This document shows, one piece after another, positions 20,609 to 59,296 of a DNA stretch of 64,000 bases; within the stretch, counting starts at the first letter, position 1; each line of letters opens with the position of its first letter. This DNA comes from Larkinella humicola. GTDB lineage: Bacteria; Bacteroidota; Bacteroidia; Cytophagales; Spirosomataceae. Where the stretch lies: contig NZ_VTWS01000005.1 of the NCBI RefSeq assembly GCF_008727875.1, positions 124,001 through 188,000 of the forward strand. Reading direction: 5' to 3'. The notes below the pieces were generated by a model. It searched no databases, had not been told where the DNA came from, and worked only from the letters and a program-made list of their open reading frames with translations. The position numbers were made by a program, and so were the translations under genes.

Positions 20609-20683
20609 ATGATGAATTATGAACGATGAACGATGGATTACCTGCGCCAGCCCATTCATAGCTCATCATCCATAATTCATCAT
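20609..20683. repeat. Hairpin with 7-base periodic arms (copy C1)
   Basis: ATGA (last unit ATGG) occurs at 20612, 20619, 20626 and 20633 on the left. The complement TCAT/CCAT occurs at 20656, 20663, 20670 and 20677 on the right, so every spacing is 7. The element lies in the manA to DMT-gene gap, 5 bases after the manA stop. Confidence 0.85.
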
Positions 20684-20690
20684 TTCATTT

Positions 20691-21134
20691 ATGAATTTCA
20701 TCTACTTCATTTTTGCCTTTCTGGTTGGAACGGCTACGAGCATTCAATCGGGCGTGAATTCCCAGTTGCGGCAGAGCATTGCCCACCCGGTTCTGGCCGC
20801 CCTCATTTCGTTTGGCTCCGGTTTTGTGGTTTTGGCATTGATGTGTCTGGCTTTTCGAACCCCCATACCGGCTCTCGAAACCATGCGGGGCATCAGTTGG
20901 TGGAAATGGACGGGCGGTTTGCTGGGGGCCATTTATGTAACAACCGTCATCATTACCGTTCCCCGGATTGGCGCGGGAAACCTGCTCAGTCTGAGCGTAG
21001 CCGGTCAATTGCTGGCGGCTGTTGTGCTGGATCATTATGGCCTGCTCGGGTTTAAAGAACACGGTCTGACGTTGTGGCGGCTGGTCGGCGTTCTGCTGAT
21101 CGTGCTGGGGGTTGTGCTGGTGGTAAAGAATTGA
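20691..21134 (+). CDS. DMT superfamily small transporter (DUF606/YdcZ type)
   Basis: 147 residues with five predicted membrane helices. It begins MNFIYFIFAFLVGTATSIQSGVNSQLRQ, where the SxQSGVNSQLR block is typical of DUF606 proteins, and ends with a helix rich in Val and Leu (VGVLLIVLGVVLVV). DUF606 proteins are half-size members of the drug/metabolite transporter superfamily and probably work as dimers. The substrate is unknown. Confidence 0.85.
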   Translation: MNFIYFIFAFLVGTATSIQSGVNSQLRQSIAHPVLAALISFGSGFVVLALMCLAFRTPIPALETMRGISWWKWTGGLLGAIYVTTVIITVPRIGAGNLLSLSVAGQLLAAVVLDHYGLLGFKEHGLTLWRLVGVLLIVLGVVLVVKN

Positions 21135-21176
21135 GGAAAAACGAACAATTCGGGTTCGAATCCGTGTTCAGTAGGC

Positions 21177-21755
21177 ATGGTCAAATACCGCTTTTATCCG
21201 ACGCTGCTCAACACCTTTTCCCGGTATCTTTCCGGGGGTAATTTCACGATGCAGCAGTTGCTCGATACCATCAACCGGGTCCCGGCCCCAACGACGGTGG
21301 CGCAGGAGCGCGGCACCCGGTTTGAAGACGCCGTGATCAAGGGCGAAGACGAAGAGCGGTTTAACGCCGACATTCTGGAAAAATTTCGCCGGCACTTGCC
21401 CCGCCCCATCATCGAAACCCAGGTTTATTGCCAGTACGAGATTGACGATGTGCTGTTTTACGGCTACGTCGATCTGATCGGAAAATACAAAGCCGTCGAT
21501 ATCAAAACCACGGCGTCCTATCAGCATCCCCGTTTCACCTTCAACCACCAGAATCTGTATCTCCACGCGCTGAAAAAACGCGGCATCCGGCTGATGGAAT
21601 ACCTGATCACGGATTTTAAGGAGGTGTATGTCGAGAGTTATTCCCTCACGCATCCGATTGATAAACAGCTCGAAGAAATCCGGCTTTTCAAGCAGTTTCT
21701 GGAAGAACACCGGGAGTTAATCTCCGATCCGAAGATTTTTGTGAATCCGGAGTGA
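21177..21755 (+). CDS. PD-(D/E)XK nuclease-like protein
   Basis: 192 residues. A restriction-nuclease-type core is visible: E50 in GTRFED, then D99 (GYVDLIG) and D108-x-K110 (AVDIKTT), followed by HQNLYLHAL with a Gln-x-x-x-Tyr like RecB-family nucleases. This looks like a stand-alone RecB/Cas4-type domain. No helicase or Cas gene is nearby, and the function is unknown. Confidence 0.65.
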   Translation: MVKYRFYPTLLNTFSRYLSGGNFTMQQLLDTINRVPAPTTVAQERGTRFEDAVIKGEDEERFNADILEKFRRHLPRPIIETQVYCQYEIDDVLFYGYVDLIGKYKAVDIKTTASYQHPRFTFNHQNLYLHALKKRGIRLMEYLITDFKEVYVESYSLTHPIDKQLEEIRLFKQFLEEHRELISDPKIFVNPE

Positions 21756-21764
21756 GTAGAAAGG

Positions 21765-21856
21765 GTTGTTTCGCAGAGTTTATCAGAGAAAATCAGAGGT
21801 AAGCGGAGAAATCTCTGATAAACTCCTTTTTTCTCTGATAAACTCTGCGAAACAAC
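21765..21856. repeat. Long hairpin with 10-base periodic arms (copy A2)
   Basis: GAG occurs at 21776, 21786, 21796 and 21806. CTC occurs at 21813, 21823, 21833 and 21843, all exactly 10 apart. Arm ends are GTTGTTTCGCAGAG and CTCTGCGAAACAAC. Units read xCAGAGxxxA where copies A1 and A3 have mostly GCGGAG, with matching changes in the opposite arm. It starts 9 bases after the nuclease-like gene. Confidence 0.9.
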
Positions 21857-21868
21857 TTTCGAATTCTC

Positions 21869-22507
21869 ATGAAAAAACTCATCATCGCCATTTCTTTCAC
21901 CCTCACTTTCTGCGCCTTCCAGAAAGAAAAATGGGTTAAACTCTTCAACGGGAAAGACTTCAGCGGCTGGACCATTCGCGGGGAACAGGTCAAGAATGAT
22001 TACCGGATCGAGAACGACGAAATCGTCGGAATTTCGAAACCCAATTCCCAGAACACCTTCCTTTGTACGAATAAAAATTACGACGATTTCATTCTGGAAC
22101 TGGAAGTGAAGGTCGATACCGGCATGAATTCGGGCATTCAGTTTCGCAGTGAAAGCCGCCCGGATTTCAAAAACGGCCGCGTTCACGGCTACCAGGCCGA
22201 AATCGATCCGGCAGCCCGTGCCTGGAGTGGCGGTTTATACGACGAAGCCCGGCGCGGCTGGTTGGTGGATCTGAAAAACAACCCCGAAGGTCGGCAGGCT
22301 TTTAAAAAATTCGACTGGAACCAGTACCGGATCGAAGCCATTGGCAAAACCGTCAAGATCTTCCTGAATGGCGTCAAAACCACCGACTACACCGATACGC
22401 TGGCGACGAAAGGGTTTATTGCCCTCCAGGTTCACGGCACCAAAGTGCAGCGCCCCATGGAAGTCCGCTGGCGCAACATCCGCTTGCAGGAACTGGCGAA
22501 GAAATAA
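21869..22507 (+). CDS. DUF1080 (3-keto-disaccharide hydrolase domain) secreted protein
   Basis: 212 residues. A short signal peptide to about residue 18 is followed by the DUF1080 beta-sandwich (PF06439): WVKLFNGKDFSGWTIRGEQ, YDDFILELEVKVDTGMNSGIQFRS, GYQAEIDPA, WNQYRIEAIGKTVKIFLNG and FIALQVHG. The family includes glycoside hydrolases acting on 3-keto-sugars and many lectin-like members. No cognate oxidoreductase is adjacent; the flavoproteins at 1-3780 are distant. The activity of this copy is unproven. Confidence 0.9.
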   Translation: MKKLIIAISFTLTFCAFQKEKWVKLFNGKDFSGWTIRGEQVKNDYRIENDEIVGISKPNSQNTFLCTNKNYDDFILELEVKVDTGMNSGIQFRSESRPDFKNGRVHGYQAEIDPAARAWSGGLYDEARRGWLVDLKNNPEGRQAFKKFDWNQYRIEAIGKTVKIFLNGVKTTDYTDTLATKGFIALQVHGTKVQRPMEVRWRNIRLQELAKK

Positions 22508-22574
22508 CGGCAAATCGCGTCCACACCCGAAATCCTTCTTTTTTATTCCCCGCTAACCGGTGACCTTTGCGGCT

Positions 22575-23804
22575 ATGATTGGCCGCAGTTTACGTCTGTA
22601 TCGGGATGCGTACCGGGGTTTGCCCGCACCGGTGTGGCTGTTGGGGGGCGTGATGCTCATCAACCGCAGCGGTACGATGGTGCTGCCCTACCTGACGCTG
22701 TATCTGACGCAACACCTGCACTACAGCGTGACGGAAGCAGGCCTGGTGATGGCCGTTTACGGGGCGGGGGCGCTGGTCGGGACGTTCCTGGGTGGGCGGC
22801 TCTCCGACCAGTTCGGTTTCTACCCGGTTCAGTTTCTGAGCCTTCTGGTTTCGGGCTTTTTCCTGATTTTCCTGCAGTTCGCGCAGGATTTCTACACCAT
22901 GTGTGGGGTCGTTTTTGTCTACACCCTGCTCGGGGATGCCTTTCGTCCGGCGGTTTCGTCGGCGGTGGCCTATTACAGCGTTCCCGAAAACCGCACCCGC
23001 GCCTATTCGCTCAACCGGCTGGCGATCAACCTCGGTTGGTCGCTCGGGGGCGGTTTGGGCGGCTATCTGGCCGGCATCGACTACCGGCTTCTGTTCTGGG
23101 TCGATGGCCTCACCTGCATCGTGGCCGCGATCGTGCTGCGGGCGTACCTGCCCGTTCCCGTCCGGCCTGGTCCAACGGTAGGCAAAACCGACGCCCCTAT
23201 AGCAGGCATCCGATCCGCCTACCGGGATCGGTTGTTTCTGATTTTTGTCGGGGCTACGATCCTGTTTGCGATCGGCTTCTGGCAGTTGTTCGGCATGATT
23301 CCGCTCTATTTCAAACAGGTGCTGCACCTGAAAGAAACCCAGATCGGGCTGCTGATGACGATGAATGGCTTGATGATCGTCTTCATCGAAATGGCGCTGG
23401 TGTATGCGGTTGAAAAGCGGTATGCGCACCTGAAAGTCGGCATCATTGGGTTTGGCGCGCTGCTGGTCGGCTTGTCATACCTGCTCCTGAATACCGGTTT
23501 GTGGCCGGTTTTAGCCATTTTTGCGGTTTTTATCAACACCTTTGGGGAAATGCTGGCGATGCCGTTCATGCAGTCGTTTACGGTGGAACGGGCCAATCCG
23601 CAAAACCGGGGGCAATACCTGGCGTTGTATTCGATGGCCTATGCGGTCGCTCAAATTACGGCACCCGCTTTCGGGTCGCAGATTGTCGCCTGGGCGGGTT
23701 TTCCGACGCTTTGGGTGGTGGTGATGGGATTTTGCCTGACCTCGGCCGTCCTATTCTGGTGGATAGCGGCCCAAGAAAAGAAAACCGCTCTGGTCGGAAA
23801 CTAG
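22575..23804 (+). CDS. MFS transporter (multidrug-efflux type)
   Basis: The ATG at 22575 gives 409 residues; a GTG five codons upstream is possible. About 12 membrane helices are predicted. The loop 2-3 motif A is seen as GGRLSDQFGFYPVQ, and an N-terminal RSGTMVLPYLTLYL block is typical of MdtH-like and related carriers. The substrate is unknown. It converges with the Uma2 gene across 30 bases. Confidence 0.88.
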   Translation: MIGRSLRLYRDAYRGLPAPVWLLGGVMLINRSGTMVLPYLTLYLTQHLHYSVTEAGLVMAVYGAGALVGTFLGGRLSDQFGFYPVQFLSLLVSGFFLIFLQFAQDFYTMCGVVFVYTLLGDAFRPAVSSAVAYYSVPENRTRAYSLNRLAINLGWSLGGGLGGYLAGIDYRLLFWVDGLTCIVAAIVLRAYLPVPVRPGPTVGKTDAPIAGIRSAYRDRLFLIFVGATILFAIGFWQLFGMIPLYFKQVLHLKETQIGLLMTMNGLMIVFIEMALVYAVEKRYAHLKVGIIGFGALLVGLSYLLLNTGLWPVLAIFAVFINTFGEMLAMPFMQSFTVERANPQNRGQYLALYSMAYAVAQITAPAFGSQIVAWAGFPTLWVVVMGFCLTSAVLFWWIAAQEKKTALVGN

Positions 23805-23834
23805 GTAAGGCATCCGAACGGTCTCCTCTTGCCT

Positions 23835-24320
23835 TTAACGAAACACCTCTTCCAGTTCCAGCGATAACCCGAGTTTTTCATCCGTCAGTGTTCCGCCAAT
23901 AAAATTCCGGTACGTTTCTGAATTGTGAATCACGTGAATGATCTTAAACAACGGATTGACCAACCAATAGGACTGAATACCGGCAGCAAAATACTGAGTT
24001 GATTTTTCGACTAATTCTTCCTGCGTCTGGGATGAGGACAAAATTTCGATCACTCCCAACGGCATTTGTGCCATCCGGGTTTCATCGTGTAGCGAGTCAA
24101 ATGTGAGTTGTGGATAAACGGCAATGTCAGGAACAACCCATTTCCCGGCCATATCCAGACTGACCTCCGACAGAAAATCATATTGATTTCCGTACTTCTT
24201 TGACAAAGTCACAAGTATACGGCTTTGAATTAAAGCGTGATTTTTACTGGGCATAGCTTTCCCGCGTTCCGTTTCGTAGTCCGGTCGTATTTGCTCCGGC
24301 TGTGTGATTACCGCTTCCAT
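23835..24320 (-). CDS. Uma2 family (DUF820) putative restriction-endonuclease-fold protein
   Basis: The ATG start gives 162 residues from MEAVITQPEQIRP; the upstream TTG extension (23 codons) is not family-like. The PD-(D/E)XK-type core is KWVVPDIAVYPQ and GVIEILSSSQTQEE, followed by KSTQYFAAGIQSYWLVNP, the standard Uma2 pattern. Uma2 proteins are abundant in cyanobacteria and Cytophagales with no agreed function. A second Uma2 gene lies at 25813. It is divergent from argH. Confidence 0.88.
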   Translation of the reverse strand: MEAVITQPEQIRPDYETERGKAMPSKNHALIQSRILVTLSKKYGNQYDFLSEVSLDMAGKWVVPDIAVYPQLTFDSLHDETRMAQMPLGVIEILSSSQTQEELVEKSTQYFAAGIQSYWLVNPLFKIIHVIHNSETYRNFIGGTLTDEKLGLSLELEEVFR

Positions 24321-24405
24321 AACTTGCCTGTTTTTTAACAAATTTACTAAATAGTCCGGGAAGAACCGCTTAATTTTGCGGCTTTCCAACTGACTCCTTA
24401 CGCGC

Positions 24406-25764
24406 TTGAAACTCTGGCAAAAAGCAACGACCGACCCTCATTCCAACGCAGCATCTGAAAAAATCGAACGGTTTACGGTTGGACGCGACCGCGAGATGGA
24501 TCTGTACCTCGCTCCTTTCGACGTTCTCGGCAACCTCGCTCATGCCACCATGCTCGAAACCATCGGCCTTTTGTCGAGTGATGAGTTAAGAGTTTTGAGT
24601 GAAGAGTTAAAATATATACATCGCCAAATAGAAGCTGGCGAGTTTGTGATTGAGGACGGTGTGGAAGATGTTCACTCGCAGGTGGAACTGATGCTGACCC
24701 GCAAACTGGGCGATGTTGGCAAGAAAATTCACAGCGGACGGTCGCGCAACGACCAGGTGCTGGTCGACCTCAAACTCTTTACCCGCGACCGGCTCTGGCA
24801 AGTGACCGAAGCCGTTCGACAGGTGTTCGACCGGCTGATTGCCCGTTCGGAGCAGCACAAAACCGATTTGCTGCCGGGCTATACGCACTTGCAGATTGCC
24901 ATGCCGTCGTCGTTCGGACTGTGGTTCGGTGCCTACGCCGAAGCCCTGGCCGATGATATGCTGCTGTTGCAAACCGCCTACCGGTTTGCCAACCGGAATC
25001 CGCTCGGTTCGGGCGCGGGCTACGGTTCCTCGTTTCCGCTCAACCGCACGTTAACCACTGAATTGCTGGGCTTTGAAGGCATGCACATCAACGTGGTGTA
25101 TGCGCAGATGAGTCGCGGAAAAACCGAACAAACCGCCCTGACGGCCCTGGCTGCCGTGGCCGCTACGCTCTCACGCATGGCGATGGACATTTGCCTCTAT
25201 AACAGCCAGAACTTCGGGTTCCTGACGCTGCCCGACGCCCTGACGACCGGTTCGAGCATCATGCCGCACAAGAAAAATCCCGACGTGGCCGAACTCCTCC
25301 GCGCCAAAACCAACCGCCTGAAAGCCCTGCCGATGGAGGTGACGCTGGTGATGAGCAACCTGCCGTCGGGCTATCACCGCGACATGCAGATTTTGAAGGA
25401 AATTCTGATGCCGGCTTTTGAAGAACTCCTGGACTGCCTGGAAATCACGGATTTCATGCTCGAAAACATTCAGGTGAAACCCAATCTGATGGACGATCCG
25501 AAATACGATCTGATGTTCAGCGTCGAACGCGTCAACGCGCTGGTGCTGGAAGGCGTTCCGTTTCGGGAAGCGTATCTGATGGTCAAAACCGAAGTGGAAG
25601 AAGGGACTTATAAAGCGTCACGCGAATTGCACCACACGCACGAAGGCAGCCTTGGCAATCTGGGGAACGATCAGATTGTGAAGTACATGGACGCAAACCT
25701 GCAGGGATTTGGCGCGGAGAAAGTGGCCAAAGCCGTGGAACGACTCCTGGCAAAAGCGCTTTAA
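24406..25764 (+). CDS. argH: Argininosuccinate lyase
   Basis: 452 residues. Conserved blocks are ERFTVGRDREMD, EDVHSQVE, KIHSGRSRNDQV, GYTHLQIAMPSSFGLW and the fumarase/lyase signature GSSIMPHKKNPD. It splits argininosuccinate into arginine and fumarate. The start is TTG: an in-frame TGA lies five codons upstream, no ATG is available before the conserved region, and the resulting MKLWQK N-terminus matches the family. Residues 58-69 (SDELRVLSEELK) are encoded by five consecutive 7-base units (see 24577). With the M20 gene at 18502 it points to a partial arginine pathway here, though not an operon. Confidence 0.96.
   Translation: MKLWQKATTDPHSNAASEKIERFTVGRDREMDLYLAPFDVLGNLAHATMLETIGLLSSDELRVLSEELKYIHRQIEAGEFVIEDGVEDVHSQVELMLTRKLGDVGKKIHSGRSRNDQVLVDLKLFTRDRLWQVTEAVRQVFDRLIARSEQHKTDLLPGYTHLQIAMPSSFGLWFGAYAEALADDMLLLQTAYRFANRNPLGSGAGYGSSFPLNRTLTTELLGFEGMHINVVYAQMSRGKTEQTALTALAAVAATLSRMAMDICLYNSQNFGFLTLPDALTTGSSIMPHKKNPDVAELLRAKTNRLKALPMEVTLVMSNLPSGYHRDMQILKEILMPAFEELLDCLEITDFMLENIQVKPNLMDDPKYDLMFSVERVNALVLEGVPFREAYLMVKTEVEEGTYKASRELHHTHEGSLGNLGNDQIVKYMDANLQGFGAEKVAKAVERLLAKAL
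24577..24611 (+). repeat. Five in-frame 7-base units inside argH
   Basis: AGT recurs at 24577, 24584, 24591, 24598 and 24605, giving units AGTGATG, AGTTAAG, AGTTTTG, AGTGAAG and AGTTAAA. The units AGTTAAG and AGTTAAA also occur in the intergenic hairpin at 37619-37670. Codon use here (TTA Leu) differs from the CTG-rich flanks. Only one arm is present, so no hairpin forms. Confidence 0.7.
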
Positions 25765-25812
25765 TTTATCTAAAAATTTACCTACATTGGTTATCAAATC
25801 TGCTTAACGATT

Positions 25813-26424: not shown

Positions 26425-26454
26425 AAGGTGTCAGATCGTTAAGTCTGACACCTT
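26425..26454. terminator. Bidirectional rho-independent terminator
   Basis: An 11-base stem AAGGTGTCAGA/TCTGACACCTT with an 8-base loop is followed by T-rich sequence. It lies between the convergent Uma2 and beta-propeller genes. Confidence 0.85.
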
Positions 26455-26467
26455 TTATTCTATCTAC

Positions 26468-27328: not shown

Positions 27329-27426
27329 AATTCGGGAGCAGATGGTTTTGTACTATTTACCCCGTAAGATAACGACACGGAGGCCGTTATTCCAACGGTT
27401 TGGCCGGTTTGTTACCGTACAGCGCG

Positions 27427-28671: not shown

Positions 28672-28817
28672 ACGACAAAAATAACGGTTCGATCAGGATT
28701 CTGCTGCTTATTAAGTGGAACTGTCATTTCTTTGTTTTTGTAAATGAGCCGCCGAGCCGCCCCAACCCACGACCGGGCTACCCGTCGTCCTTTTTAACGT
28801 CTTTCAAAAATTCGGTT

Positions 28818-29465: not shown

Positions 29466-29472
29466 ATACTAA

Positions 29473-29501: not shown

Positions 29502-29522
29502 CTTTCTATGCGTCGACTTACC

Positions 29523-30307: not shown

Positions 30308-30357
30308 AAACCTTATTTTTAGCCTTCTGTACCTTCCTCTCAACCGTACTATTACTT

Positions 30358-31698
30358 ATGTTCCAGTATTACCGTCTTCTATCCTTCATTTTTTGCGTCT
30401 TCCTAAGTACCACGATCCTACAGGCGCAGCAGACCGCGGCCACGTTTTTTGAAACCGGCATTGTGAAAAGTAAATCGGGCGATTTCATGGGTGCCTTGCA
30501 GGCATTCAGTATGGCCATCGGGGCAAATCCCGAAAACGCACCCAGCTACTACAACCGCGGACTGGCCAAAGCCAATCTGAAAGACCACCGGGGCGCCATT
30601 TTGGACTACGACCGGGCCATTGAACTCAATGGAAAAGATGCCCTGGCTTACCTCAGTCGCGGGGTCAGCAAGAGCAAACAGGACGACCACCGCGCGGCCC
30701 TCATGGACTTCAGCCGGGCCATCGAACTGGCGCCCGACGACGCCCAGGCGTATTATTACCGGGGCGCGAGCCGCAGCCGCCTGGAACAATACCGGGGAGC
30801 CTTGCAGGATTTCTCCAAAACCATCGAACTGGACCCCAACAACGTGCAGACGCTGTATGCCCGTGGCATCACCAAACAGAAACTGGACGATTATGCGGGC
30901 AGTCTGGCCGATTTTTCGAAGGTCATCGAACTGAATCCCAAACGGGCGCAGGCGTATGCCGGTCGGGGAGCGTCGCTGGTGCAACTGGGCCAGTACCAAA
31001 AAGCCGCTGAAGACCTTAACAAGGCCATTGAACTGGCGCCCGAAGATGGCGAATCGTTCTACAACCGGGGCTTTGCCAAGAGCAAACTGGAAGATTACAA
31101 AAGTGCGTTGAATGACTATGACCGGGCGATTGTTCTGGAAGCAACCAACTACCGGGCCTTTTATGGCCGCGCCTTCTGCCGTGGCAAACTGGGCGACCAG
31201 AAAGGGGCGATTCAGGATTACAATACCGCGATTGAAATCAACAATGCCAACGTAGAGACGAAAGTGGTCTATAACGGCAAAATCTCAAGGGCGGTTCTGG
31301 ACAATTTGCGGAACGCCGTGCAGCAGAAAAACATCATCGACGCCCTGTCGACCGAACGCTCGGAAGCGTATTTTAACCGGGCCATCAGCAAAAGCAAAGT
31401 CAACGACATCAAAGGAGCCACGGCCGATCTGAACAAAGCCATCGAACTGAACCCGACCTACTCCGAAGCCTACTTCACCCGCGGCCTCATCCGCTCGCAG
31501 CAGGGCGACCAGAAAGGGGCGATTCTGGACTGCAACAGCGCACTTCAACTTGATCCGAAATACGCAGAAGTCTACTACGTGCGCGGCATCATCCGCCACA
31601 GTCTGGGCGACGAAAACGGCGGCTGTCTCGACCTCAGCAAATCCGGCGAACTCGGCTACACGCCGTCGTACAAGGCGATTAGTGATTACTGTAATTAG
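30358..31698 (+). CDS. Secreted tetratricopeptide-repeat protein
   Basis: 446 residues. A signal peptide (cut near AQQ, residue 24) is followed by about eleven or twelve TPR units, each about 34 residues, with highly similar signatures (AYYYRGASRSRLEQYRGAL, NRGFAKSKLEDYKSALNDY, YVRGIIRHSLGDENGG). One longer spacer interrupts the array (VETKVVYNGKISRAVLDNL, about 302-320). It probably acts as a periplasmic scaffold. The stop codon is 2 bases from a 7-base-periodic hairpin. Confidence 0.92.
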   Translation: MFQYYRLLSFIFCVFLSTTILQAQQTAATFFETGIVKSKSGDFMGALQAFSMAIGANPENAPSYYNRGLAKANLKDHRGAILDYDRAIELNGKDALAYLSRGVSKSKQDDHRAALMDFSRAIELAPDDAQAYYYRGASRSRLEQYRGALQDFSKTIELDPNNVQTLYARGITKQKLDDYAGSLADFSKVIELNPKRAQAYAGRGASLVQLGQYQKAAEDLNKAIELAPEDGESFYNRGFAKSKLEDYKSALNDYDRAIVLEATNYRAFYGRAFCRGKLGDQKGAIQDYNTAIEINNANVETKVVYNGKISRAVLDNLRNAVQQKNIIDALSTERSEAYFNRAISKSKVNDIKGATADLNKAIELNPTYSEAYFTRGLIRSQQGDQKGAILDCNSALQLDPKYAEVYYVRGIIRHSLGDENGGCLDLSKSGELGYTPSYKAISDYCN

Positions 31699-31699
31699 A

Positions 31700-31779
31700 A
31701 TGATGAGTTATGAATGATGAACGATGAACGAGCTTCGCCGGTAAGCATTCATCGTTCATCATTCATAACCCATCATTCA
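31700..31779. repeat. Hairpin with 7-base periodic arms (copy C2)
   Basis: ATGA occurs at 31703, 31710, 31717 and 31724. TCAT/CCAT occurs at 31749, 31756, 31763 and 31770. The right arm contains the stop codon of the AMP nucleosidase gene (31773-31775), and the left arm begins 2 bases after the TPR stop. It is thus the whole 3' region shared by two convergent genes and may terminate both. Confidence 0.85.
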
Positions 31780-32543
31780 AATCTAAGGTGCTTGACCGAT
31801 TCGCCTGAGTTGGCTAGTTCGCGGAGGGAGTCGATGCCGATCTGGAGGTGTTTTTCGACGTACGAGCCGGTAACGCGTTTGTCGCTTTCTTCGGTTTTGA
31901 CGCCTTCCGGCACCATCGGATTGTCGGAAACCAGCAGCAGGGCGCCGTGAGGAATGGCGTTGGCAAAACCGACGATGAAGATCGTGGCGGTTTCCATGTC
32001 GATCGCCATGGCCCGAATCTCACGCAGATACTCCTTGAACACTTCGTCGTGTTCCCAGATCCGCCGGTTGGTCGTATAGACCGTACCGGTCCAGTAATCC
32101 AGTTCGTGTTTTTTGATCATGGACGAAACCGCCCGCTGCAACCTAAACGACGGCAGAGCCGGGATTTCGGGCTTCATATAATCGTTGCTGGTGCCATCGC
32201 CCCGAATGGCCGCAATGGGCAAAACTAGGTCACCGACCAGCGTTTTTTTCAAACCACCGCATTTTCCCAGAAACAACACCGCCTTGGGGTTCACCGCCGT
32301 CAGCAAATCCATGACCGTTGCGGCCATGGCACTGCCCATTCCGAAGTTGATGATCGTGATGTTGTCGGCAGTTGCCGTTTGCATGGCCCGGCCCAGCCCG
32401 TAGATTTCGGTGTCGTATTTTTTCGCAAACAGCTCGACGTAGTTGATAAAATTCGTCAGCAGAATGTACTCTCCGAATTGCTCGATGGGCGTTCCGGTAT
32501 ACCGGGGCAGCCAGTTTTGGACAATTTCATCTTTGGTTTTCAT
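31773..32543 (-). CDS. AMP nucleosidase (short Bacteroidota type)
   Basis: The ATG at 32543 gives 256 residues starting MKTKDEIVQNWLPRYTGTP; a short upstream extension is rejected. It has the phosphorylase/nucleosidase fold with INFGMGSAMAATVMDLL, AVLFLGKCGGLK, the catalytic region AIDMETATIF and LLLVSDNPMVPEGVKT. It hydrolyses AMP to adenine and ribose-5-phosphate. Its last codons lie inside hairpin C2. It is divergent from the HsdR_N-like gene. Confidence 0.9.
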   Translation of the reverse strand: MKTKDEIVQNWLPRYTGTPIEQFGEYILLTNFINYVELFAKKYDTEIYGLGRAMQTATADNITIINFGMGSAMAATVMDLLTAVNPKAVLFLGKCGGLKKTLVGDLVLPIAAIRGDGTSNDYMKPEIPALPSFRLQRAVSSMIKKHELDYWTGTVYTTNRRIWEHDEVFKEYLREIRAMAIDMETATIFIVGFANAIPHGALLLVSDNPMVPEGVKTEESDKRVTGSYVEKHLQIGIDSLRELANSGESVKHLRFE

Positions 32544-37060: not shown

Positions 37061-37642
37061 ATGCAATTAACCCGTCCCCTGGTGTTGGCCTCCAATTCGC
37101 CCCGCCGACAACAACTGATGCGTGAAATGGGGTGTACGTTCCGCGTTGACGTCCGACCGACCGACGAAAGCTTCCCGGCAGACATGCCCATTGCCGATGT
37201 TCCGGCATTTCTGGCGCGTCAGAAAGCCGACCGGTTTCGGGCTGATCTGGGCGATCAACTGGTTTTGTGCGCCGACACCATCGTCGTTGTCGATTCCGAT
37301 ATTCTGAACAAACCCGCCGATGCCGACGAAGCCGTGCAGATGCTCCGACGGTTGTCGGGCCGGGCGCACCAGGTCATGACGGGCGTTTGTCTGCTGTCGG
37401 CCGAAGAAACCGTTTCGTTCACCGACGTGGTTACGGTGGTTTTCAATCCGCTGGACGACTATGAAATCAACTCCTACGTCGAAAAATACCGCCCCTTCGA
37501 CAAAGCCGGGGCCTACGGAGTTCAGGAACCCATCGGTATGATCGGCATCCAGCGCATCGAAGGGTCTTTTTATACGGTAATGGGTTTACCGGTTCACCAG
37601 GTTTATCAGGCTTTAAAGAGTTATGAGTTAAGGGTTAGCTGA
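37061..37642 (+). CDS. maf: Maf family nucleotide pyrophosphatase
   Basis: 193 residues. The substrate-loop signature is LASNSPRRQQLM near the start, then RPTDES, KADRF, CADTIVV, GRAHQVMTGV, DKAGAYGVQEP and IEGSFYTVMGLPV. Maf proteins hydrolyse non-canonical nucleoside triphosphates. The last nine codons (from KSYELRVS) are read from a 7-base-periodic repeat that continues into the gap, so the natural C-terminus may have been replaced. Confidence 0.93.
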   Translation: MQLTRPLVLASNSPRRQQLMREMGCTFRVDVRPTDESFPADMPIADVPAFLARQKADRFRADLGDQLVLCADTIVVVDSDILNKPADADEAVQMLRRLSGRAHQVMTGVCLLSAEETVSFTDVVTVVFNPLDDYEINSYVEKYRPFDKAGAYGVQEPIGMIGIQRIEGSFYTVMGLPVHQVYQALKSYELRVS

Positions 37643-37672
37643 CGCGTTTAACTTTTAACTCATAATTCAATG
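37612..37672. repeat. Hairpin with 7-base periodic arms, overlapping the maf 3' end (copy C4)
   Basis: AGTT/GGTT occurs at 37619, 37626 and 37633. AACT/AATT occurs at 37650, 37657 and 37664. The left arm encodes the last residues and stop of Maf. The loop is GC-rich (GCTGACGCG). A hairpin of another family starts 2 bases later. Confidence 0.8.
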
Positions 37673-37673: not shown

Positions 37674-37773
37674 CTTTCGCTTTCTGCCCCTAAATCCCTT
37701 AAAGGGGACTTTTGGAATCCGGATTGATCGTGTCCAAGTCCCCTTTAGGGGATTTAGGGGCAGAAAGCGAAAG
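37674..37773. repeat. 38-base inverted repeat with conserved loop (copy B2)
   Basis: Arms 37674-37711 and 37736-37773 pair with one mismatch. The core is CCCCTAAATCCC with AAAGGGGACTT. The loop contains ATCCG and GTGTCC, shared with copy B3 at 55087. It lies between maf and moaC directly after C4. Confidence 0.92.
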
Positions 37774-38963: not shown

Positions 38964-39032
38964 ATGATGAGCAATGAGTGGGCTTATGCGGACGGCCCTG
39001 TCATCGTTCATCATCCATCGTTCATCATTCAT
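38964..39032. repeat. Hairpin with 7-base periodic right arm, eroded left arm (copy C3)
   Basis: TCAT/CCAT occurs at 39001, 39008, 39015, 39022 and 39029. On the left only ATGA at 38967 and 38974 are in register, so pairing is partial. It lies in the gap between mobA and the thiamine pyrophosphokinase gene. Confidence 0.75.
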
Positions 39033-47226: not shown

Positions 47227-47247
47227 AAGCGTTTAATATGCGAAGAA

Positions 47248-47338
47248 AGAGCATAGACAGGAGAAAAAAGAGGGTAAACACGATCATACCACCCGGTATT
47301 AGGCCCTTCTTTCGTCTCTTGTCTACCTTCTTTCATCT
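47248..47338. repeat. Hairpin with 7-base periodic arms (copy C7)
   Basis: AGA occurs at 47248, 47255, 47262 and 47269. TCT occurs at 47308, 47315, 47322, 47329 and 47336. All spacings are 7 with a different core from the other copies. The arms pair imperfectly. The element starts 21 bases after the GIN gene stop and is followed by a normal terminator. Confidence 0.85.
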
Positions 47339-47368
47339 AACCGATAGTTAATAGAGATTGGTAGAATC

Positions 47369-47400
47369 AAAAATCGCCCTCTGACTCGGAGGGCGATTTT
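47369..47400. terminator. Bidirectional terminator
   Basis: The 12-base stem AAAATCGCCCTC/GAGGGCGATTTT has a 7-base loop and T-runs on both strands. It lies between the convergent GIN and PhyH genes. Confidence 0.92.
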
Positions 47401-47421
47401 TTATAGAACAAAACCGGCTGA

Positions 47422-50976: not shown

Positions 50977-51000
50977 GCTTTTCTTTTTGTAGTTCATTCT

Positions 51001-52254: not shown

Positions 52255-52262
52255 CCAGCCGC

Positions 52263-53474: not shown

Positions 53475-55013
53475 ATGAAAAACAACTGGAAAACGTTAGC
53501 GATCATCGCTCTGCTGTCAAGCTTTGTTACCCTGGCCGCTTATAACTTCTTAGGATTTAATAAGCAGGATGTAATTTTTAACGAATCGTCACCAACTCCC
53601 ACCCCAACGGGCCGGTTGGCGGCACTGACCGGGCCTCAGGGCGCTCCGGGTGATTTTACCTACGCTGCCGAAGCCACTACACCGGCGGTGGTACACATCA
53701 AAACGACTATGACCCGTACGGTTCGCCAACAGCAGATTCCGGATATTTTCCGTGACTTCTTTGGGGATGAATTTGGCCGGGGTGGCAACGGCGGAGGAGG
53801 AGCCCCGCAACGTCAACGCGGGCAGGCTTCCGGCTCTGGCGTCATCATCAGTCAGGACGGTTTTATTGTCACCAACAATCACGTGGTACAGGGTGCCGAC
53901 GAGGTGGAGGTGATTCTGACCGACAAACGCAGTTTCAAAGCGAAAGTGATTGGCACCGACCCGCTGACCGATCTGGCCGTGATTCAGGTCAACGCCAAAA
54001 ATCTGCCTTCCATTACCCTGGGTGATTCGGATGCGCTGAAGCTCGGTGAGTGGGTGTTGGCGGTGGGGTATCCCTTGGATCTGGAATCGACGGTAACCGC
54101 CGGAATTGTGAGTGCGAAAGGACGCCGGATTGGTATCCTGGATCAGAATGTTGATCGCAACGACGCCAAACCGGATTCGCCGGTTGAAGCCTTCATCCAA
54201 ACGGATGCCGCCATCAACCCCGGTAATTCCGGTGGTGCACTGGTCAACCTGCGCGGTGAACTGGTCGGTATCAACTCGGCCATCGCTTCAGCTACGGGCT
54301 ACTACAGCGGATACGGTTTTGCTGTCCCGGTTTCTCTGGTGAAGAAAGTTTCGGCTGACCTGGTTAAATACGGCAACGTGCAACGGGGTTATCTGGGCAT
54401 CATTCCGGTTGAACTGAACAGCCTGCGAGCACAGGAACTGGGTTCTAAAATTGGACGTGGTATCTACATCAACGAAGTCGTGGAAGGTGGTGCCTCAGCG
54501 TCGGCTGGTTTGAAAAAAGGGGACGTGATCGTGAAAATGGAAGGCCAGAATGTGGATTCCGACGCTCAGATGCGGGAGATCATCGGCCGTCGTCGCCCGG
54601 GTGACGTCATTGCCATGACGGTTAACCGGAATGGTGATCTGCGGGATTTCCGCGTCGAACTGCGTAACCGCAACGGAGGTCGTGACATCATCAAGAAAAG
54701 CGACAACATTTCTGCTTCTAATTCAGCCGCCACCCTGGGTTCACTGGGAGCCGACTTCGAAGAACTGGCCGCAACCGATGCCAAACGGCTGGGTGTTGAT
54801 GGCGGTGTTCGGGTGAAACGGATTCGGGAAGGCAAAATGTCCGAAACCGACATCGAAGAAGGTTTCATCATTGTGAAAGCCAACGGAAAAGTTGTCCGCA
54901 CGGTGAAAGATCTGCAAACGGCGCTGAACACTACCAAAGAAGGTGAAGGCCTGATGTTGATCGGAATGTATCCGAACAGTTCCCGGATGTATTACTACGC
55001 TGTGCCGGTATAA
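53475..55013 (+). CDS. Periplasmic Do/HtrA-type serine endopeptidase
   Basis: 512 residues. The N-terminal membrane signal is about 7-26. The trypsin-fold protease has H136 (VTNNHVVQG), D166 (LTDLAVIQV) and S252 (NPGNSGGALV), preceded by a Gly-rich loop (about 101-119). PDZ1 (about 295-390) includes GYLGIIPVELN and ASAGLKKGDVIVKMEGQNV. PDZ2 (about 415-505) is more divergent. It degrades or refolds damaged envelope proteins. It is monocistronic, with a strong terminator after it. Confidence 0.95.
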   Translation: MKNNWKTLAIIALLSSFVTLAAYNFLGFNKQDVIFNESSPTPTPTGRLAALTGPQGAPGDFTYAAEATTPAVVHIKTTMTRTVRQQQIPDIFRDFFGDEFGRGGNGGGGAPQRQRGQASGSGVIISQDGFIVTNNHVVQGADEVEVILTDKRSFKAKVIGTDPLTDLAVIQVNAKNLPSITLGDSDALKLGEWVLAVGYPLDLESTVTAGIVSAKGRRIGILDQNVDRNDAKPDSPVEAFIQTDAAINPGNSGGALVNLRGELVGINSAIASATGYYSGYGFAVPVSLVKKVSADLVKYGNVQRGYLGIIPVELNSLRAQELGSKIGRGIYINEVVEGGASASAGLKKGDVIVKMEGQNVDSDAQMREIIGRRRPGDVIAMTVNRNGDLRDFRVELRNRNGGRDIIKKSDNISASNSAATLGSLGADFEELAATDAKRLGVDGGVRVKRIREGKMSETDIEEGFIIVKANGKVVRTVKDLQTALNTTKEGEGLMLIGMYPNSSRMYYYAVPV

Positions 55014-55035
55014 AGTATCAAGAGTGTTTTCGGGT

Positions 55036-55080
55036 TCATAAAACAGCCGCCGGTTCTCGGAACCGGCGGCTGTTTTATGA
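55036..55080. terminator. Perfect 21-base terminator hairpin
   Basis: Arms 55036-55056 and 55060-55080 pair over 21 bases with loop TCG and T-rich ends on both strands. It lies downstream of htrA and can also serve the convergent gmd. Confidence 0.95.
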
Positions 55081-55086
55081 ACTGGT

Positions 55087-55170
55087 TTTTGCTCCTAAAT
55101 ACCCTGAAGGGGACCGTTAAATCCGAATAAACTGTGTCCAAGTCCCCTTTAGGGTATTCAGGGGTAAAAC
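55087..55170. repeat. Imperfect inverted repeat (copy B3) abutting the gmd stop
   Basis: Arms of about 28 bases (CTCCTAAATACCCT / AGGGTATTCAGGGG with AAGGGGAC / GTCCCCTT) are mostly kept by G-T or matched pairs. The loop shares ATCCG, AT and GTGTCC with copy B2. The right arm ends at the base before the gmd stop codon. Confidence 0.85.
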
Positions 55171-56283
55171 TTACTCGAAATAATTCATCACCCGGTGACC
55201 GCTTTTCTCCAGCAACTGGTCACGTTGGAACAGTTCGATGTCGGCGGCAACCATTTCTTTCACCAAAGCGGCCAGGTCGTATTTCGGTTTCCAGCCCAGT
55301 TTGGTCATGGCTTTGGTCGGATCACCGAGGAGCAGATCCACTTCCGTCGGGCGGAAATAGCGCTCGTCGATGCAGACCAGTTCGCGTCCCACTTCAATGG
55401 GATAATCGGGATTGGTCGACTTGACCACCACACCGGTTTCGTTGACGCCTTCGCCTTTGAACTCCAGTTCAACGCCAATTTCGGCAAAAGCCATCCGGAT
55501 AAAATCGCGGATGTGGGTGGTTTTCCCGGTGGCAATCACGAAGTCTTCCGGAGTTTCCTGCTGCAACATGAGCCACATCGCTTCGACGTAATCTTTGGCG
55601 TGGCCCCAGTCGCGTTGTGCGTCCAGGTTGCCCATGAATACCTTGTCTTGCAAACCCAGCGCAATCCGGGCCACCGCCCGCGTGATTTTCCGGGTTACAA
55701 ACGTCTCCCCGCGCAGGGGTGATTCGTGGTTGAACAGAATCCCGTTACAGGCATACATGCCGTAGGCTTCCCGGTAGTTGACCGTAATCCAGTAGCCGTA
55801 CAGTTTGGCGACGGCGTAGGGAGAACGGGGATAGAAAGGGGTCGTTTCGGATTGGGCATGGCCCTGTACTCCACCATACAACTCTGAAGTCGAAGCCTGA
55901 TAAATACGGGTTTTTTCGCTCAATCCCAGCAACCGAACGGCTTCCAGAATCCGCAGGGTACCGATCCCGTCGACGTGCGCCGTGTATTCGGGTTCTTCAA
56001 AACTCACCCGGACGTGCGACATAGCCCCCAGGTTATAGATTTCATCCGGCTGAACTTCCTGAATGATTCGGATGATGTTAGTCGAATCGGACAAATCACC
56101 GTAGTGCAATACAAACCGCACGTGTTTCTCGTGCGGATCTTCGTAAATATGATCGATCCGCTGGGTGTTGAACAGCGAACTCCGGCGTTTGATGCCATGA
56201 ACTTCGTATCCCTTCGACAGGAGCAGTTCTGCTAAGTAGGCGCCGTCCTGGCCGGTAATTCCGGTAATAAGTGCTTTTTTCAT
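55171..56283 (-). CDS. gmd: GDP-mannose 4,6-dehydratase
   Basis: 370 residues. The NADP motif is [19 protein letters not shown]. The active-site region is [11 protein letters not shown] with [25 protein letters not shown], and the cofactor-binding [15 protein letters not shown] is typical of Gmd. It makes GDP-4-keto-6-deoxymannose, the precursor of GDP-fucose and other deoxysugars. No fcl/wcaG partner is adjacent. ManA at 19627 feeds the same pathway. Confidence 0.97.
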
Positions 56284-56325
56284 AGAATAGTAATAAAGAC
56301 TGGCTACAAAAAATATAGGGTATCG

Positions 56326-56934
56326 CTATTTAATGGACAAACTCCTTCTGATCTCGATCCGATCGGGTAAAAGTGTAGCCGACGAAAACTGCTGACGCAA
56401 TTGGGCCAAATACCGCTCGGCATCGAGCCGACGCATAAAATCGCCCACTTTCAACCGGTACGTTGGTTGGCGATACGTCGTATAGGGGTTCAATTCCGGA
56501 AAATTCTGGTAGGTAAACCGCTTGACGCGGTCCACTTCGGCCCGCTGGTCACCGACGTACACCTGGATTCGATACCCTTGTGCGTACCGGATGGAGCGGT
56601 TTTTAACCGAAATGGTGTCCAGGATGGCATCCAGTTTTTTGTTGATGTGCAAAGGCTCAGCCATCGGCAGCGTCCGGCGGGTTTCGGGAGCCGGGCGGGC
56701 GGGCGGTGTAGAGGGTGACGGTTTTGCCGTTGCTGGCGCGGCCGTGCTGTATTTGGGGCGGGTAGCCGATAAATCGTAATTATACGTATTGTAATCCGTC
56801 GAAGGCACTGACGACGACGACCGGGATACCGCCTTCTTCGATGAGGCACACGAGCTGATCCAGCCCGACAGTCCGACCAAAACTACCAGGATAAACGCGC
56901 TATCCGAACGAATTTTATACATCTGTGCTTTCAT
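56326..56934 (-). CDS. SPOR-domain lipoprotein
   Basis: 202 residues. The lipobox is SGWISSC (about residue 29). A long Ser/Thr/Pro-rich linker (about 35-90) follows, then a SPOR domain (about 118-195, GYRIQVYVGDQRAEVDRVKRF and YRLKVGDFMRRLDAERYLAQLRQQF). SPOR domains bind denuded peptidoglycan at division sites. It may be cotranscribed with gmd 42 bases downstream. It is divergent from murB. Confidence 0.88.
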   Translation of the reverse strand: MKAQMYKIRSDSAFILVVLVGLSGWISSCASSKKAVSRSSSSVPSTDYNTYNYDLSATRPKYSTAAPATAKPSPSTPPARPAPETRRTLPMAEPLHINKKLDAILDTISVKNRSIRYAQGYRIQVYVGDQRAEVDRVKRFTYQNFPELNPYTTYRQPTYRLKVGDFMRRLDAERYLAQLRQQFSSATLLPDRIEIRRSLSIK

Positions 56935-57066
56935 CCCTTGTTTGCAAATTTAGCAACTATCTGGTTATGCAACAATCCGCACGCTATCTTGTTGAGCAAT
57001 ACCGCCAACATACCAACGTTTTCCCTTCTTTTTATTTACTTTGAGGTAGCCTTCTTACGCTAACCC

Positions 57067-58092
57067 ATGCTAGATATTCAAAGCCACGTATCACTGAAAT
57101 CCTATAATACCTTCGGAATCGACGCGAAAGCCCGCTATTGGGTTGAAATCGATACCGAAGAACAACTGAGGACGCTTTTCCAGGTATCCGAGTTTTTAGC
57201 AGCTCCCAAACTGATTCTGGGCGGAGGCAGCAACCTGCTTTTCACGCGTGATTTTGAGGGTCTGGTTGTTAAAATGTCCATACAGGGGATCAAAGTGGTG
57301 CGGGAAGACGAGTCACACGTTTTTGTGAAAGCCGGAGCGGGTGTCAACTGGCACCAGCTGGTTCTGTTTTGTGTACAAAATGGGTATGCCGGCATCGAAA
57401 ACCTGTCCCTGATTCCCGGCACCACGGGTGCGGCCCCCATGCAAAACATCGGAGCCTACGGCGTTGAAATCGAGCAGGTGTTCGATCATCTGGAAGCAGT
57501 GGACATCCAGACGGGCGAAACCCGGATTTTCAATCATGCCGAATGCCGGTTTGGGTATCGGGAAAGCATTTTTAAACACGAAGCCAAAGGTAAATACATC
57601 ATCAGCAGCGTCACGTTTCGCCTGAACAAACAGCCCGTTTTTCACATCGAGTACGGTGCGATTCGGGAAACGCTGGCGACCATGGGCGTGTCGGAGGACA
57701 ATCTCAGCATCAAGGCAATCAGTGAAGCGGTCATCCGAATCCGGCGCAGCAAACTCCCCAATCCCGCCGAAATTGGCAATGCCGGGAGCTTCTTTAAAAA
57801 TCCGGAAATCTCAAAAGACGACTTTGCCCGGCTGAAAGCCGAGTATCCTACCCTGCCCGGCTACCCGACCGGTGATCTGACGATGAAAGTTCCGGCCGGC
57901 TGGCTCATCGAACAATGCGGCTGGAAAGGCAAACACATCGGTGCTGCGGGGGTGCATTCCAAGCAGGCCCTCGTGCTGGTCAACCACGGCGGGGCCACGG
58001 GTGCCGAAATTCTGAACGTAGCCCACCAGGTCCAGCAGTCGGTGGAAGACCAGTTCGGGATTCGGCTGAATCCGGAAGTGAATATTGTTTGA
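57067..58092 (+). CDS. murB: UDP-N-acetylenolpyruvoylglucosamine reductase
   Basis: 341 residues, the longer type like E. coli. The FAD-binding part is YNTFGIDAKARYWVEI and LGGGSNLLFTRDFEG. Active-site regions are CRFGYRESIFK, GNAGSFFKNPEI (catalytic Ser) and a C-terminal Glu near RLNPEVNIV. It completes UDP-MurNAc synthesis. Its stop codon lies in the first bases of hairpin 58091-58210. Confidence 0.97.
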   Translation: MLDIQSHVSLKSYNTFGIDAKARYWVEIDTEEQLRTLFQVSEFLAAPKLILGGGSNLLFTRDFEGLVVKMSIQGIKVVREDESHVFVKAGAGVNWHQLVLFCVQNGYAGIENLSLIPGTTGAAPMQNIGAYGVEIEQVFDHLEAVDIQTGETRIFNHAECRFGYRESIFKHEAKGKYIISSVTFRLNKQPVFHIEYGAIRETLATMGVSEDNLSIKAISEAVIRIRRSKLPNPAEIGNAGSFFKNPEISKDDFARLKAEYPTLPGYPTGDLTMKVPAGWLIEQCGWKGKHIGAAGVHSKQALVLVNHGGATGAEILNVAHQVQQSVEDQFGIRLNPEVNIV

Positions 58093-58210
58093 ATGGATTG
58101 AAATGGCTGGATGGTTAAATGGTTTGAATTGAATGGTTAAAAATGGTTGGAAAGTTGCATGAATCAGCCATTCAAACCATCCAACCATTTTTAACCATCA
58201 AAAACCATCT
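58091..58210. repeat. Long imperfect hairpin with roughly 10-base periodic arms (copy C5)
   Basis: TGG occurs at 58094, 58104, 58134 and 58144 in one register, with 58112 and 58120 off it. CCA occurs at 58185, 58195 and 58205, with 58168 and 58177 off register. Units resemble ATGGTTAAAA. The right arm runs into the stop codon of the ROK gene (58209) and the left arm includes the murB stop, so both convergent genes end inside it. Confidence 0.75.
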
Positions 58211-59123
58211 ATTCAAAACAAAGTGATGCCGCGCCCAGCAGGCCCGCGTCATTGCCGAGGGTAGCGCGTTTGAGCGACAAACCGTTCTGATAATAGGGCG
58301 TGAGCCAGAAGTCCAGTTGCTTCTGAACGGCAGGCAGAATGTAGTCGTAGGAAGCCGACAGACCGCCACCAATGAGGATTTGCTTGATGTCCAGCACCCG
58401 AATCAAGGCCACGAGCCCGTCGCCGAGCATCTCGCCCACTTCCGTCCAGATTTGCAGGGCCAGTTCGTCGCCAATGGCGGCCGCAGCCACCAGACTGGTC
58501 GTCGAAATGCTTCCGTCTGCCGCCAGTTGGGTGGTTCCTTCAAACTCCTGACGCCGTTCGTTGGCTAGATCCAGCAGTTCTTTTTTACCGATGTTCCGTT
58601 CGAGAACGCGGTTGTTGCGCGAAGGCAGATGACCGGGTTCCATCGCGTTACCGTCGCCACCGACAAATACCTTTTTGTTGATAATAGCCGCTCCGCCAAC
58701 ACCCGTTCCCAGGGTTATGAAAATATAATTTTCGTCAATGTTATCGTCAGCAAAATAAAATTCGCCCAGCGCAGCCGCGTTGGCGTCATTTTCCAGAAAA
58801 AACTGGACGTCCGGAAACCGTTTGTTCAGGGATTCGACGAGGGGAACGCCGTTCAATTCAGGAATGGCCGTAATTTCGAGCGGGACGGTTCGCTCCCGGT
58901 TGATCATACCGGGCAAGCCAATGCCTACTTTCTTAATTTCCTTGTGTTCATACAGTTGAAGCGCAATGGCGTCAGCAAATTGTTCGACAAAATGCCCTGA
59001 TTCGCGCCAACTGGCCGTATCATGACTGTAAAAGTTGGAAATATTGCCACTTTGCGCGTCGACAATACCCATTTTGACATTCGTACCGCCGACGTCAATA
59101 CCCAAATATTGAACAGATTCCAT
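58209..59123 (-). CDS. ROK family sugar kinase-like protein
   Basis: 304 residues. The ATP motif is LGIDVGGTNVKMGIV. The second region is ENDANAAALGEFYF with ITLGTGVGGAAI, followed by MEPGHLPSRNN. The cysteine-rich zinc motif CxCGxxGCxE of classical ROK proteins is absent after that His. Similar Cys-less members are annotated as glucokinases. It probably phosphorylates glucose or a related hexose. It is separated from the SDR gene upstream by hairpin C6. Confidence 0.88.
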   Translation of the reverse strand: MESVQYLGIDVGGTNVKMGIVDAQSGNISNFYSHDTASWRESGHFVEQFADAIALQLYEHKEIKKVGIGLPGMINRERTVPLEITAIPELNGVPLVESLNKRFPDVQFFLENDANAAALGEFYFADDNIDENYIFITLGTGVGGAAIINKKVFVGGDGNAMEPGHLPSRNNRVLERNIGKKELLDLANERRQEFEGTTQLAADGSISTTSLVAAAAIGDELALQIWTEVGEMLGDGLVALIRVLDIKQILIGGGLSASYDYILPAVQKQLDFWLTPYYQNGLSLKRATLGNDAGLLGAASLCFE

Positions 59124-59204
59124 TACTGGAGTTTTATGTTTGAAACGTACTTTTCTATCTCAGTTTTTTCAATGAGGGCGCAAGATACGAAGGAAGATTT
59201 TAAT

Positions 59205-59296
59205 GAATATCGAATAATGAATATTGAACGCTGAATGTTGAATGCGGAACCTCCCGCGACCCTACTTCAACATTCGCTATTCAATATTCATTATTC
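59205..59296. repeat. Hairpin with 7-base periodic arms (copy C6)
   Basis: GAA occurs at 59205, 59212, 59219, 59226, 59233, 59240 and 59247, seven units exactly 7 apart. TTC occurs at 59266, 59273, 59280, 59287 and 59294. It is the clearest copy of the class. It lies 18 bases after the SDR stop on the minus strand, upstream of the ROK gene. Confidence 0.93.

Follow-up and report, generated by a model that had tools for sequence, protein, structure and literature searches.

The stretch of DNA analysed here (the window) is 64,000 nucleotides of Larkinella humicola, C16:124001-188000 of the source genome G000, which comprises 7.86 Mb in 20 contigs. Lying between its genes are hairpins whose arms are made up of seven-base words in tandem (heptad hairpins), together with hairpins of other periods and aperiodic ones (Table 1). 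An initial annotation had reported six hairpins with arms of period seven; all six are present at the positions that it gave, and the series that it had listed for one of them, GAA from 59205 to 59247 and TTC from 59266, is exact. Compared to their dinucleotide shuffles, five of the six have far better folds (z -5.0, -11.4, -7.4, -5.8 and -10.9; 0 of 200 shuffles did as well). The copy at 38964 is worn, its arms being unequal (z -2.4; 2 of 200 did as well). No Rfam family matched in the window at gathering scores. Gene borders in this analysis are those of the greedy longest open reading frames (ORFs) delimited by a script and not those of an annotation, which is probably why hairpins 37618 and 38964 are missing from the ORF-based table of window junctions.

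Table 1. Hairpins in the window (G002 and G006 are close relatives of the source genome)
Feature	Position	Strand	Remarks
Heptad hairpin, GAATGAT-type words (family F2)	20609..20683	.	4 bp past the stop of gene 19627-20604(+), 7 bp ahead of the next gene
Heptad hairpin, GAATGAT/GAGTTAT words	31694..31782	.	Spans the whole interval between two convergent genes
Heptad hairpin, GAGTTAA words (F3), apex GCTGACGC	37618..37668	.	End of a Maf-like gene
Worn heptad hairpin, CATCATT/CATCGTT words	38964..39032	.	Fold pairs 38964-39014; right-hand array continues to 39032
Imperfect hairpin, AGACAAGAGA-type words (F5)	47242..47337	.	
Heptad hairpin, GAAYRNY words (F1)	59206..59302	.	12 bp from the stop of gene 59315-60067(-)
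Period-10 hairpin (CGCGGAGTTGAG)	1914..2001	.	
Period-10 hairpin (CGCAGAGTTTATCAGAG)	21765..21856	.	
Period-10 hairpin	60935..61030	.	Arms identical in G006; ACAGAG-type words in G002
ATGGTT hairpin	58111..58203	.	Best lag 8-10 depending on species
Aperiodic hairpin, CCCCTAAA type (CCCC...GGGG type)	37674..37773	.	Adjoins F3 hairpin 37618
CCCC...GGGG-type hairpins	5768-5840 and 55087-55169		

When a strict ungapped rule was applied to the window, lag-7 arms were found in 3 of its 14 inverted repeats (IRs) and in none of 40 resampled windows, which held on average 0.03 IRs of any kind, and a chance origin was therefore rejected. An ungapped scan of a larger sample of the genome, 864 kb made up of the window, C11:1-400000 and C13:1-400000, gave 170 IRs, of which 150 were intergenic. 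At a cut-off of 0.5 or more for the self-identity of an arm at lag 7, 56 of the 170 were lag-7 hairpins (shuffled-arm mean 19.8, maximum 31), which excludes for these 864 kb that the rhythm is no commoner than in shuffled sequence. At lag 14 there were 50 IRs compared to 17 for resampled arms, and at the same cut-off lags 8, 9 and 10 gave no excess over shuffles. The self-agreement of intergenic IR arms was 0.405, 0.382, 0.373 and 0.328 at lags 7, 14, 21 and 28, compared to some 0.25 at the majority of other lags, and it rose to a lesser extent at lag 10 (0.309) and lag 20 (0.317). Within the sample the rhythm belongs to the arms: autocorrelation at lags 7, 14 and 21 was 0.41, 0.39 and 0.38 in hairpin arms and 0.26, 0.26 and 0.28 in intergenic DNA outside hairpins, and lag-7 identity was 0.413 in arms and 0.242 in coding DNA. 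A signal of free direct heptad arrays was not seen in the 59.8 kb of intergenic DNA outside hairpins, where lag-7 identity (0.263) was like that of neighbouring lags.

The words of the arms had been described as mostly private to each copy. This was not borne out, as they belong to about six period-7 families, each present at several to many loci, namely F1 (GAAYRNY), F2 (GAATGAT), F3 (GAGTTAA), F4 (GGTTTAC), F5 (GACAAGAGAG) and F6 (AATGTAAAATGATG), all assigned by custom expressions. There are also smaller word families with periods of 8, 9 and 10; the heptad arms described earlier are real, but seven is one period among several. Descent of all copies from one family with simple drift was rejected on the grounds that the hairpins differ in word family, loop and period, though F4 and F6 taken alone resemble dispersed families. 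Seven F3 hairpins lie in a run at C13:212-243 kb, at least partly amid tandem genes of about 800 amino acids (220-240 kb was looked at), and therefore these hairpins were probably copied together with the genes. Several of the tandem genes in this part (L040, G000:C13:220001-240000) have their own GAGTTAA-type hairpin with a differing word order, which makes them a natural series of paralogs. Overall, neighbouring hairpins were not significantly clustered by family (10 of 49 compared to 10.9 when shuffled). The words GAGTTAA/GAGTGAA also occur without a paired arm at 24583-24610, within the ORF 24406-25764.

The position of the hairpins behind stop codons, likewise part of the initial annotation, holds for the sample, in which the median distance from stop codon to the start of a lag-7 hairpin was 6 bp (63 gene ends). 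The junctions of 52 lag-7 hairpins were 23 ++, 15 +-, 10 -- and 4 -+, whereas all 451 junctions of at least 50 bp were 122 ++, 84 +-, 144 -- and 101 -+; thus, divergent junctions hold few of them (4 of 52 compared to 101 of 451). Stop proximity and scarcity in divergent gaps point to 3'-end elements. IRs are enriched behind stop codons in general (PMC13155455), and the likeness to intrinsic terminators is a hairpin directly behind the stop codon, whereas the hairpins here have long arms and loops. Since a T-run of 5 or more past the stem was found at only 1 of 25 gene ends with F1-F3 (9 of 59 for F4-F6 and 10 of 68 for other hairpins), F1-F3 are not standard intrinsic terminators. The putative function of the hairpins as a whole would be a transcript end that lacks a U-tract and works in both directions, or 3' protection. 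At two junctions beyond the window end, an apparent classic terminator was seen by eye in some species where others carry a periodic hairpin. A short hairpin that looks like a classic intrinsic terminator (GC stem, A- and T-runs) lies at 47366-47404, near the imperfect F5 hairpin 47242, and a similar one is found in several relatives.

What is kept at these junctions between species is the place, the pairing and mostly the period. The window region of nine genomes offers 13 junctions with 105 periodic hairpin pairs in all. Own pairing in these was 0.93 compared to 0.64 when arms were paired across species, and the period was equal in 93 of the 105 (shuffled mean 53, maximum 64); even among the 62 pairs with an arm identity below 0.65 it was still the same in 54. 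At rewritten orthologous junctions the arm pairing was 0.93 within species and 0.56 across species. For the close trio of G000, G002 and G006, whose flanks are about 95% identical, 559 G000 junctions were used and orthologs were located for 346 of them in G002 and for 180 in G006. Periodic arms in the trio were 0.71 identical (71 pairs, 41 junctions), with an own pairing of 0.93 and an equal period in 63 of the 71 pairs, compared to 0.89 for the arms of aperiodic hairpins (59 pairs) and 0.93 for hairpin-free cores (439 pairs); in 12 further pairs a periodic hairpin faced no hairpin and in 44 an aperiodic one. When both members were periodic, the family was the same in 42 of 49 (G000-G002), 27 of 32 and 24 of 27 comparisons (expected 6.6, 5.6 and 4.6), and 9 periodic G000 hairpins had no counterpart in G002, with 1 in the reverse direction. 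Therefore, persistence is the rule and loss or replacement the minority. Among individual junctions, that of hairpin 31694 carries GAATGAT, GAGTTAA, AACAATTA or GGGTTGAG words in eight other species, the GGGTTGAG words being those of G007, of period 8 by eye only. The G002 ortholog of the period-10 hairpin 21765 is, by eye, 20 bp shorter and the stretch between direct repeats of one arm is gone. The aperiodic hairpin 37674-37773 was not found in the orthologous stretches of eight other species.

The changes within orthologous hairpins were of several kinds. In 50 gap-aligned pairs of same-family heptad hairpins from 30 junctions (pairs below 60% identity or coverage were dropped), gaps of 7 nt occurred 11 times and of 14 nt 6 times, compared to 6 times for 6 nt, 4 times for 8 nt and once each for 13 and 15 nt, with the reservation that alignment of periodic DNA may disguise word changes as gaps, or gaps as word changes. 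Double changes, in which both partners are altered and pairing is kept, numbered 20 compared to 1.5 expected if independent, next to 107 single changes. Loops were compared with the apex motif GGCTGRCGC masked, since loops that share this apex would otherwise align. Of 42 orthologous pairs of heptad loops 17 aligned forward and 7 inverted (7 of 24 alignable, at 6 junctions), whereas 268 non-orthologous pairs gave 1 forward and 4 inverted, and at C13:125336 there is an exact inversion of 18 nt. The loop of the ATGGTT hairpin 58111 also aligned inverted with G002 and with G006. Inversions of period-10 and CCCC loops were discounted because the background was too high, with 29 of 303 and 86 of 205 non-orthologous pairs aligning. 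At C13:212264 three species share one loop, while the words of both arms differ between G000 and G002, and in G006 the left arm alone is lengthened. Spacer inversion and linked changes of two arms, the features of template switching, are thus both present here.

Heptad hairpins were also found far outside the genus. The pattern GAATNNYGAAYNNYGAA, gap, TTCRNNRTTCRNNATTC matched 27 genomes in a sample of 395 from across the phylum, and its reversed control matched 0 among the matches listed. The simpler pattern of GAA every 7 bases was rejected as unspecific, its reversed control being commoner in several relatives, e.g. G004, G014, G016, G026 and G051. A scan of species genomes for GAA words matched at least 120 stretches. 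Among 80 of these matches, the isolate genomes were from Bacteroidota, from the Cyanobacteria Scytonema and Nostoc, and from two Chloroflexota, Oscillochloris and a Chloroflexales strain. Metagenome bins only, the contigs of which may be misfiled, represented Lentisphaerae, Acidobacteria, Verrucomicrobia, Nitrospirae, Planctomycetes, Gemmatimonadetes, Ignavibacteria and others among these 80. In the 120 stretches listed a hairpin was found in 116, the contexts being 31 ++, 26 +-, 22 --, 7 -+, 7 within an ORF and 23 contig ends, and the median stop distance was 9 bp (105 gene ends). The same 120 loci hold 106 other IRs (arms below 15 nt were skipped) that had not been chosen by their words, with a self-agreement of 0.455 at lag 7 and 0.467 at lag 21, and lag 7 was the best lag, at 0.55 or more, in 31 of them, followed by lag 8 in 9 of them. 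This set is no unbiased census because the loci were chosen for one GAA hairpin. The words in these other lag-7 hairpins include GTGACAA, AGTGAGT, GATTGCA (Oscillochloris) and GTCATTT (Nostoc).

The explanation that we prefer, and hold with moderate confidence, is that these are 3'-end hairpins renewed by slippage in steps of 7 nt and by copying from arm to arm; the combination of findings suggests that hairpins are renewed here in a manner not yet described. Long stem-loops are retained immediately downstream of stop codons and are infrequent in the promoter gaps of divergent genes, presumably because a stable structure at the transcript end is tolerated or wanted there. Their arms are imperfect tandem arrays that gain and lose one or two seven-base words at a time, as the gap lengths, chiefly in F1-F3, show, presumably by slippage in steps of 7 nt. 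Replication would at times switch template inside the hairpin and copy one arm onto the other, an assumed polymerase event that would keep the arms complementary and at times flip the loop, consistent with the double changes and the loop inversions. Now and then, as comparison of junctions shows, a junction exchanges its whole hairpin for one from a different word family, and place, pairing and period therefore last while the words drift and turn over. The step of seven might reflect the length that the polymerase holds, which has been suggested in print to be 7 nt, but this is no more than a candidate cause.

The earlier suggestion that arms are regenerated from each other is thus supported in part, by own pairing that exceeds cross-species pairing, the excess of double changes, the loop inversions, a lag-7 signal found in arms only and lag-7 arms of unrelated words in other phyla, whereas the original observation of the hairpins is confirmed and is wider than first seen. 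Against arm copying, in particular in its strong form, several results have to be set. Aligned same-family heptad arms differ by 0.058 changes per site, like the flanks, and so the excess divergence of arms is not substitution; its sources are units gained or lost, seen as gaps of 7 and 14 mainly in F1-F3, and family replacement. The word family is retained in most G000-G002 comparisons (42 of 49), and F4 and F6 are like ordinary dispersed families in keeping their word order. Gaps of 1, 2 and 3 nt (13, 9 and 9) are as common as those of 7 nt, and the gap peak is supplied by F1-F3 (10 gaps of 7 nt, 5 of 14 nt, none of 8 nt), whereas F4-F6 have a single gap of 7 nt but 4 of 8 nt. Arm copying is also not peculiar to heptads, because aperiodic hairpins show an equal excess of double changes (21 compared to 0.9 expected), and selection for pairing could also yield such changes. 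If slippage acted alone, heptad arrays would be expected outside hairpins too, and no lag-7 signal of this kind was seen in intergenic DNA. Lastly, at six loci of two Lentisphaerae bins (L114, L128, L134, L176, L181 and L186) one arm has GAATGCT/GAATGTT words and the other GAATTAT words, and the two pair at the GAAT core alone, which amounts to slippage with no copying between arms.

A wider form of this explanation is less likely than not, namely that self-renewing 3'-end hairpins are pan-bacterial, that the trait inherited is the place, the pairing and the seven-base period and not the sequence, that hairpin-bound copying with a fixed step of 7 nt renews the arms one word at a time, and that unrelated phyla converge on it with different words.

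Rather unlikely, in our judgement, is that mobile hairpin families of the kind of miniature inverted-repeat transposable elements or repetitive extragenic palindromic (REP) sequences land behind stop codons and later replace one another, the heptad arms being simply how the elements look. Word order is indeed kept between loci in F6 and F4, where the longest matches were 21.5 and 20.0 bases compared to 16.0 and 16.2 for word-shuffled arms; it is somewhat kept in F3 (18.2 compared to 16.6, standard deviation 0.5) and within about 1.2 standard deviations of shuffles in F1, F2 and F5 (5 loci each). Mobility would also account for one family replacing another at a junction, as at C11:120922, which has F4 in G000 and G005 and F5 in G002, and at C11:173635 (F2 versus F6), and for hairpins lying within hairpins. 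At C13:214773 a CCCC hairpin copy lies inside an F3 hairpin in G000 and G006 whereas G002 has the plain hairpin, and therefore CCCC-type hairpins nest in others; another hairpin element is nested at the window junction 20605 in G006. The two-word motif GGCTGRCGC, shared by F2, F3, F4 and ATGGTT hairpins, occurs in 24 of 355 IRs (60 permuted words gave a mean of 0.08 and a maximum of 1), and it is a motif of the apex and not a foot tag of the REP kind such as GTAG or CGTC. Near-identical copies, however, were not found: the best non-self identity was at most 0.87 among 52 hairpins of the 864-kb sample, and the best-scoring paralogs of hairpin 31694 and of its G002 ortholog within the same genome were 86% and 88% identical among the 40 of 68 and 40 of 106 candidates scored. 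Among the matches listed, relatives of these two occur in 8 of 9 genomes of the genus, with none in G007. Two candidate empty sites (C13:60484 in G002 and C11:151491 in G006) were seen by eye and have no clear target duplication, and families of unrelated words, those of other phyla included, have period and position in common. An origin from REP sequences and their REP-associated tyrosine transposases (RAYTs) was rejected for lack of linkage, as no long lag-7 hairpin was found within about 1.5 kb on each side of the 7 loci of REP/IS200-type (Y1_Tnp) transposases, where one repeat with 13-nt arms (in L112) had a lag-7 value of 0.50. One RAYT gene lies in the window itself at 11186-11728(-) (NF047646, 99.4 bits, cut-off 80), with six more Y1_Tnp matches in the genome, and a AAACCGTTGAAACGGTTT-type palindrome near one of these (L106) may be its REP.

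We consider it improbable that selection acts alone, i.e. that a protein or RNA machine reads a core spaced by 7 nt in both arms and mutation just supplies the variants. GAAYNNY words do recur in distant phyla, the core bases are fixed and the others free, and the purine-rich arm comes first in 39 of 52 hairpins and last in 10 (neither in 3), but the recurrence is partly by design, as the scan asked for those words, and there is no common core since the other lag-7 hairpins use GTGACAA, GATTGCA, AGTGAGT and more. That the arms are stop-codon traps, in which 7 being 1 mod 3 spreads stops over all frames behind leaky stops, is very improbable, because stops are slightly in excess (5.1 per arm pair compared to 4.1 expected) but close all three frames of the 5' arm in only 18 of 52 hairpins (1.87 frames with a stop compared to 1.65 expected) and some words elsewhere, e.g. 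GATTGCA, have by eye no stop at all.

The components of this picture are already known separately, namely heptamer repeats, stop-proximal hairpins and template switching, whereas we found no account in the open PMC literature of hairpins with periodic arms that joins the three. Heptameric repeats are reported to be over-represented in bacteria, those of Xanthomonas have conserved positions and varying sequence, and a 7-nt polymerase contact is proposed (PMC4692102; PMC4679880). The heptameric simple sequence repeats and short tandemly repeated repetitive sequences (Xanthomonas GGGAATC, Nostoc GGGGAYT, heptanucleotides of Calothrix; PMC4692102, and Mrazek 2007 as cited there) resemble the arms in their seven-base intergenic units, the peaks at lags 7, 14 and 21 being those of tandem 7-nt units, and in occupying the same junctions in related species with big variation in length and sequence; some inverted pairs were reported, but there they are described as direct arrays of one kind of word, unlike the paired stop-adjacent arms of several word families seen here. 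The TAACTGA repeats of Beggiatoaceae, Cyanobacteria and Bacteroidetes are also intergenic heptamers in scattered phyla, whereas they are presented as one word, direct and mostly ahead of start codons, with one indirect repeat in the main genome (PMC4679880). Template switching is described as homogenising the arms and inverting the spacers of quasipalindromes, a likeness to the present loops and arms, although the sites in these accounts are single short IRs and not arrays of fixed period (PMC7202029; PMC8604942). REP sequences and REPINs, with their RAYT transposases, likewise form many intergenic palindromes per genome, whereas the hairpins here had no near-identical copies seen and no transposase neighbour and their word content is free (PMC2817692, PMC3116915, PMC3733652).

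Conserved non-coding elements are usually found by sequence similarity, whereas here position, pairing and period are conserved, and because the words drift such hairpins escape family databases. These loci keep a natural record of slippage and template switching, and the old puzzle that bacterial simple repeats favour seven bases becomes directly testable because the intergenic signal lies in hairpin arms. If the hairpins end or protect transcripts, they would make up a large group of 3' ends, so far without annotation, in Bacteroidota and other phyla. The palindrome at L103:5008-5094, 5 kb past the window end, exceeds its G002 counterpart in length in both G000 and G006 because of an insert at the centre.

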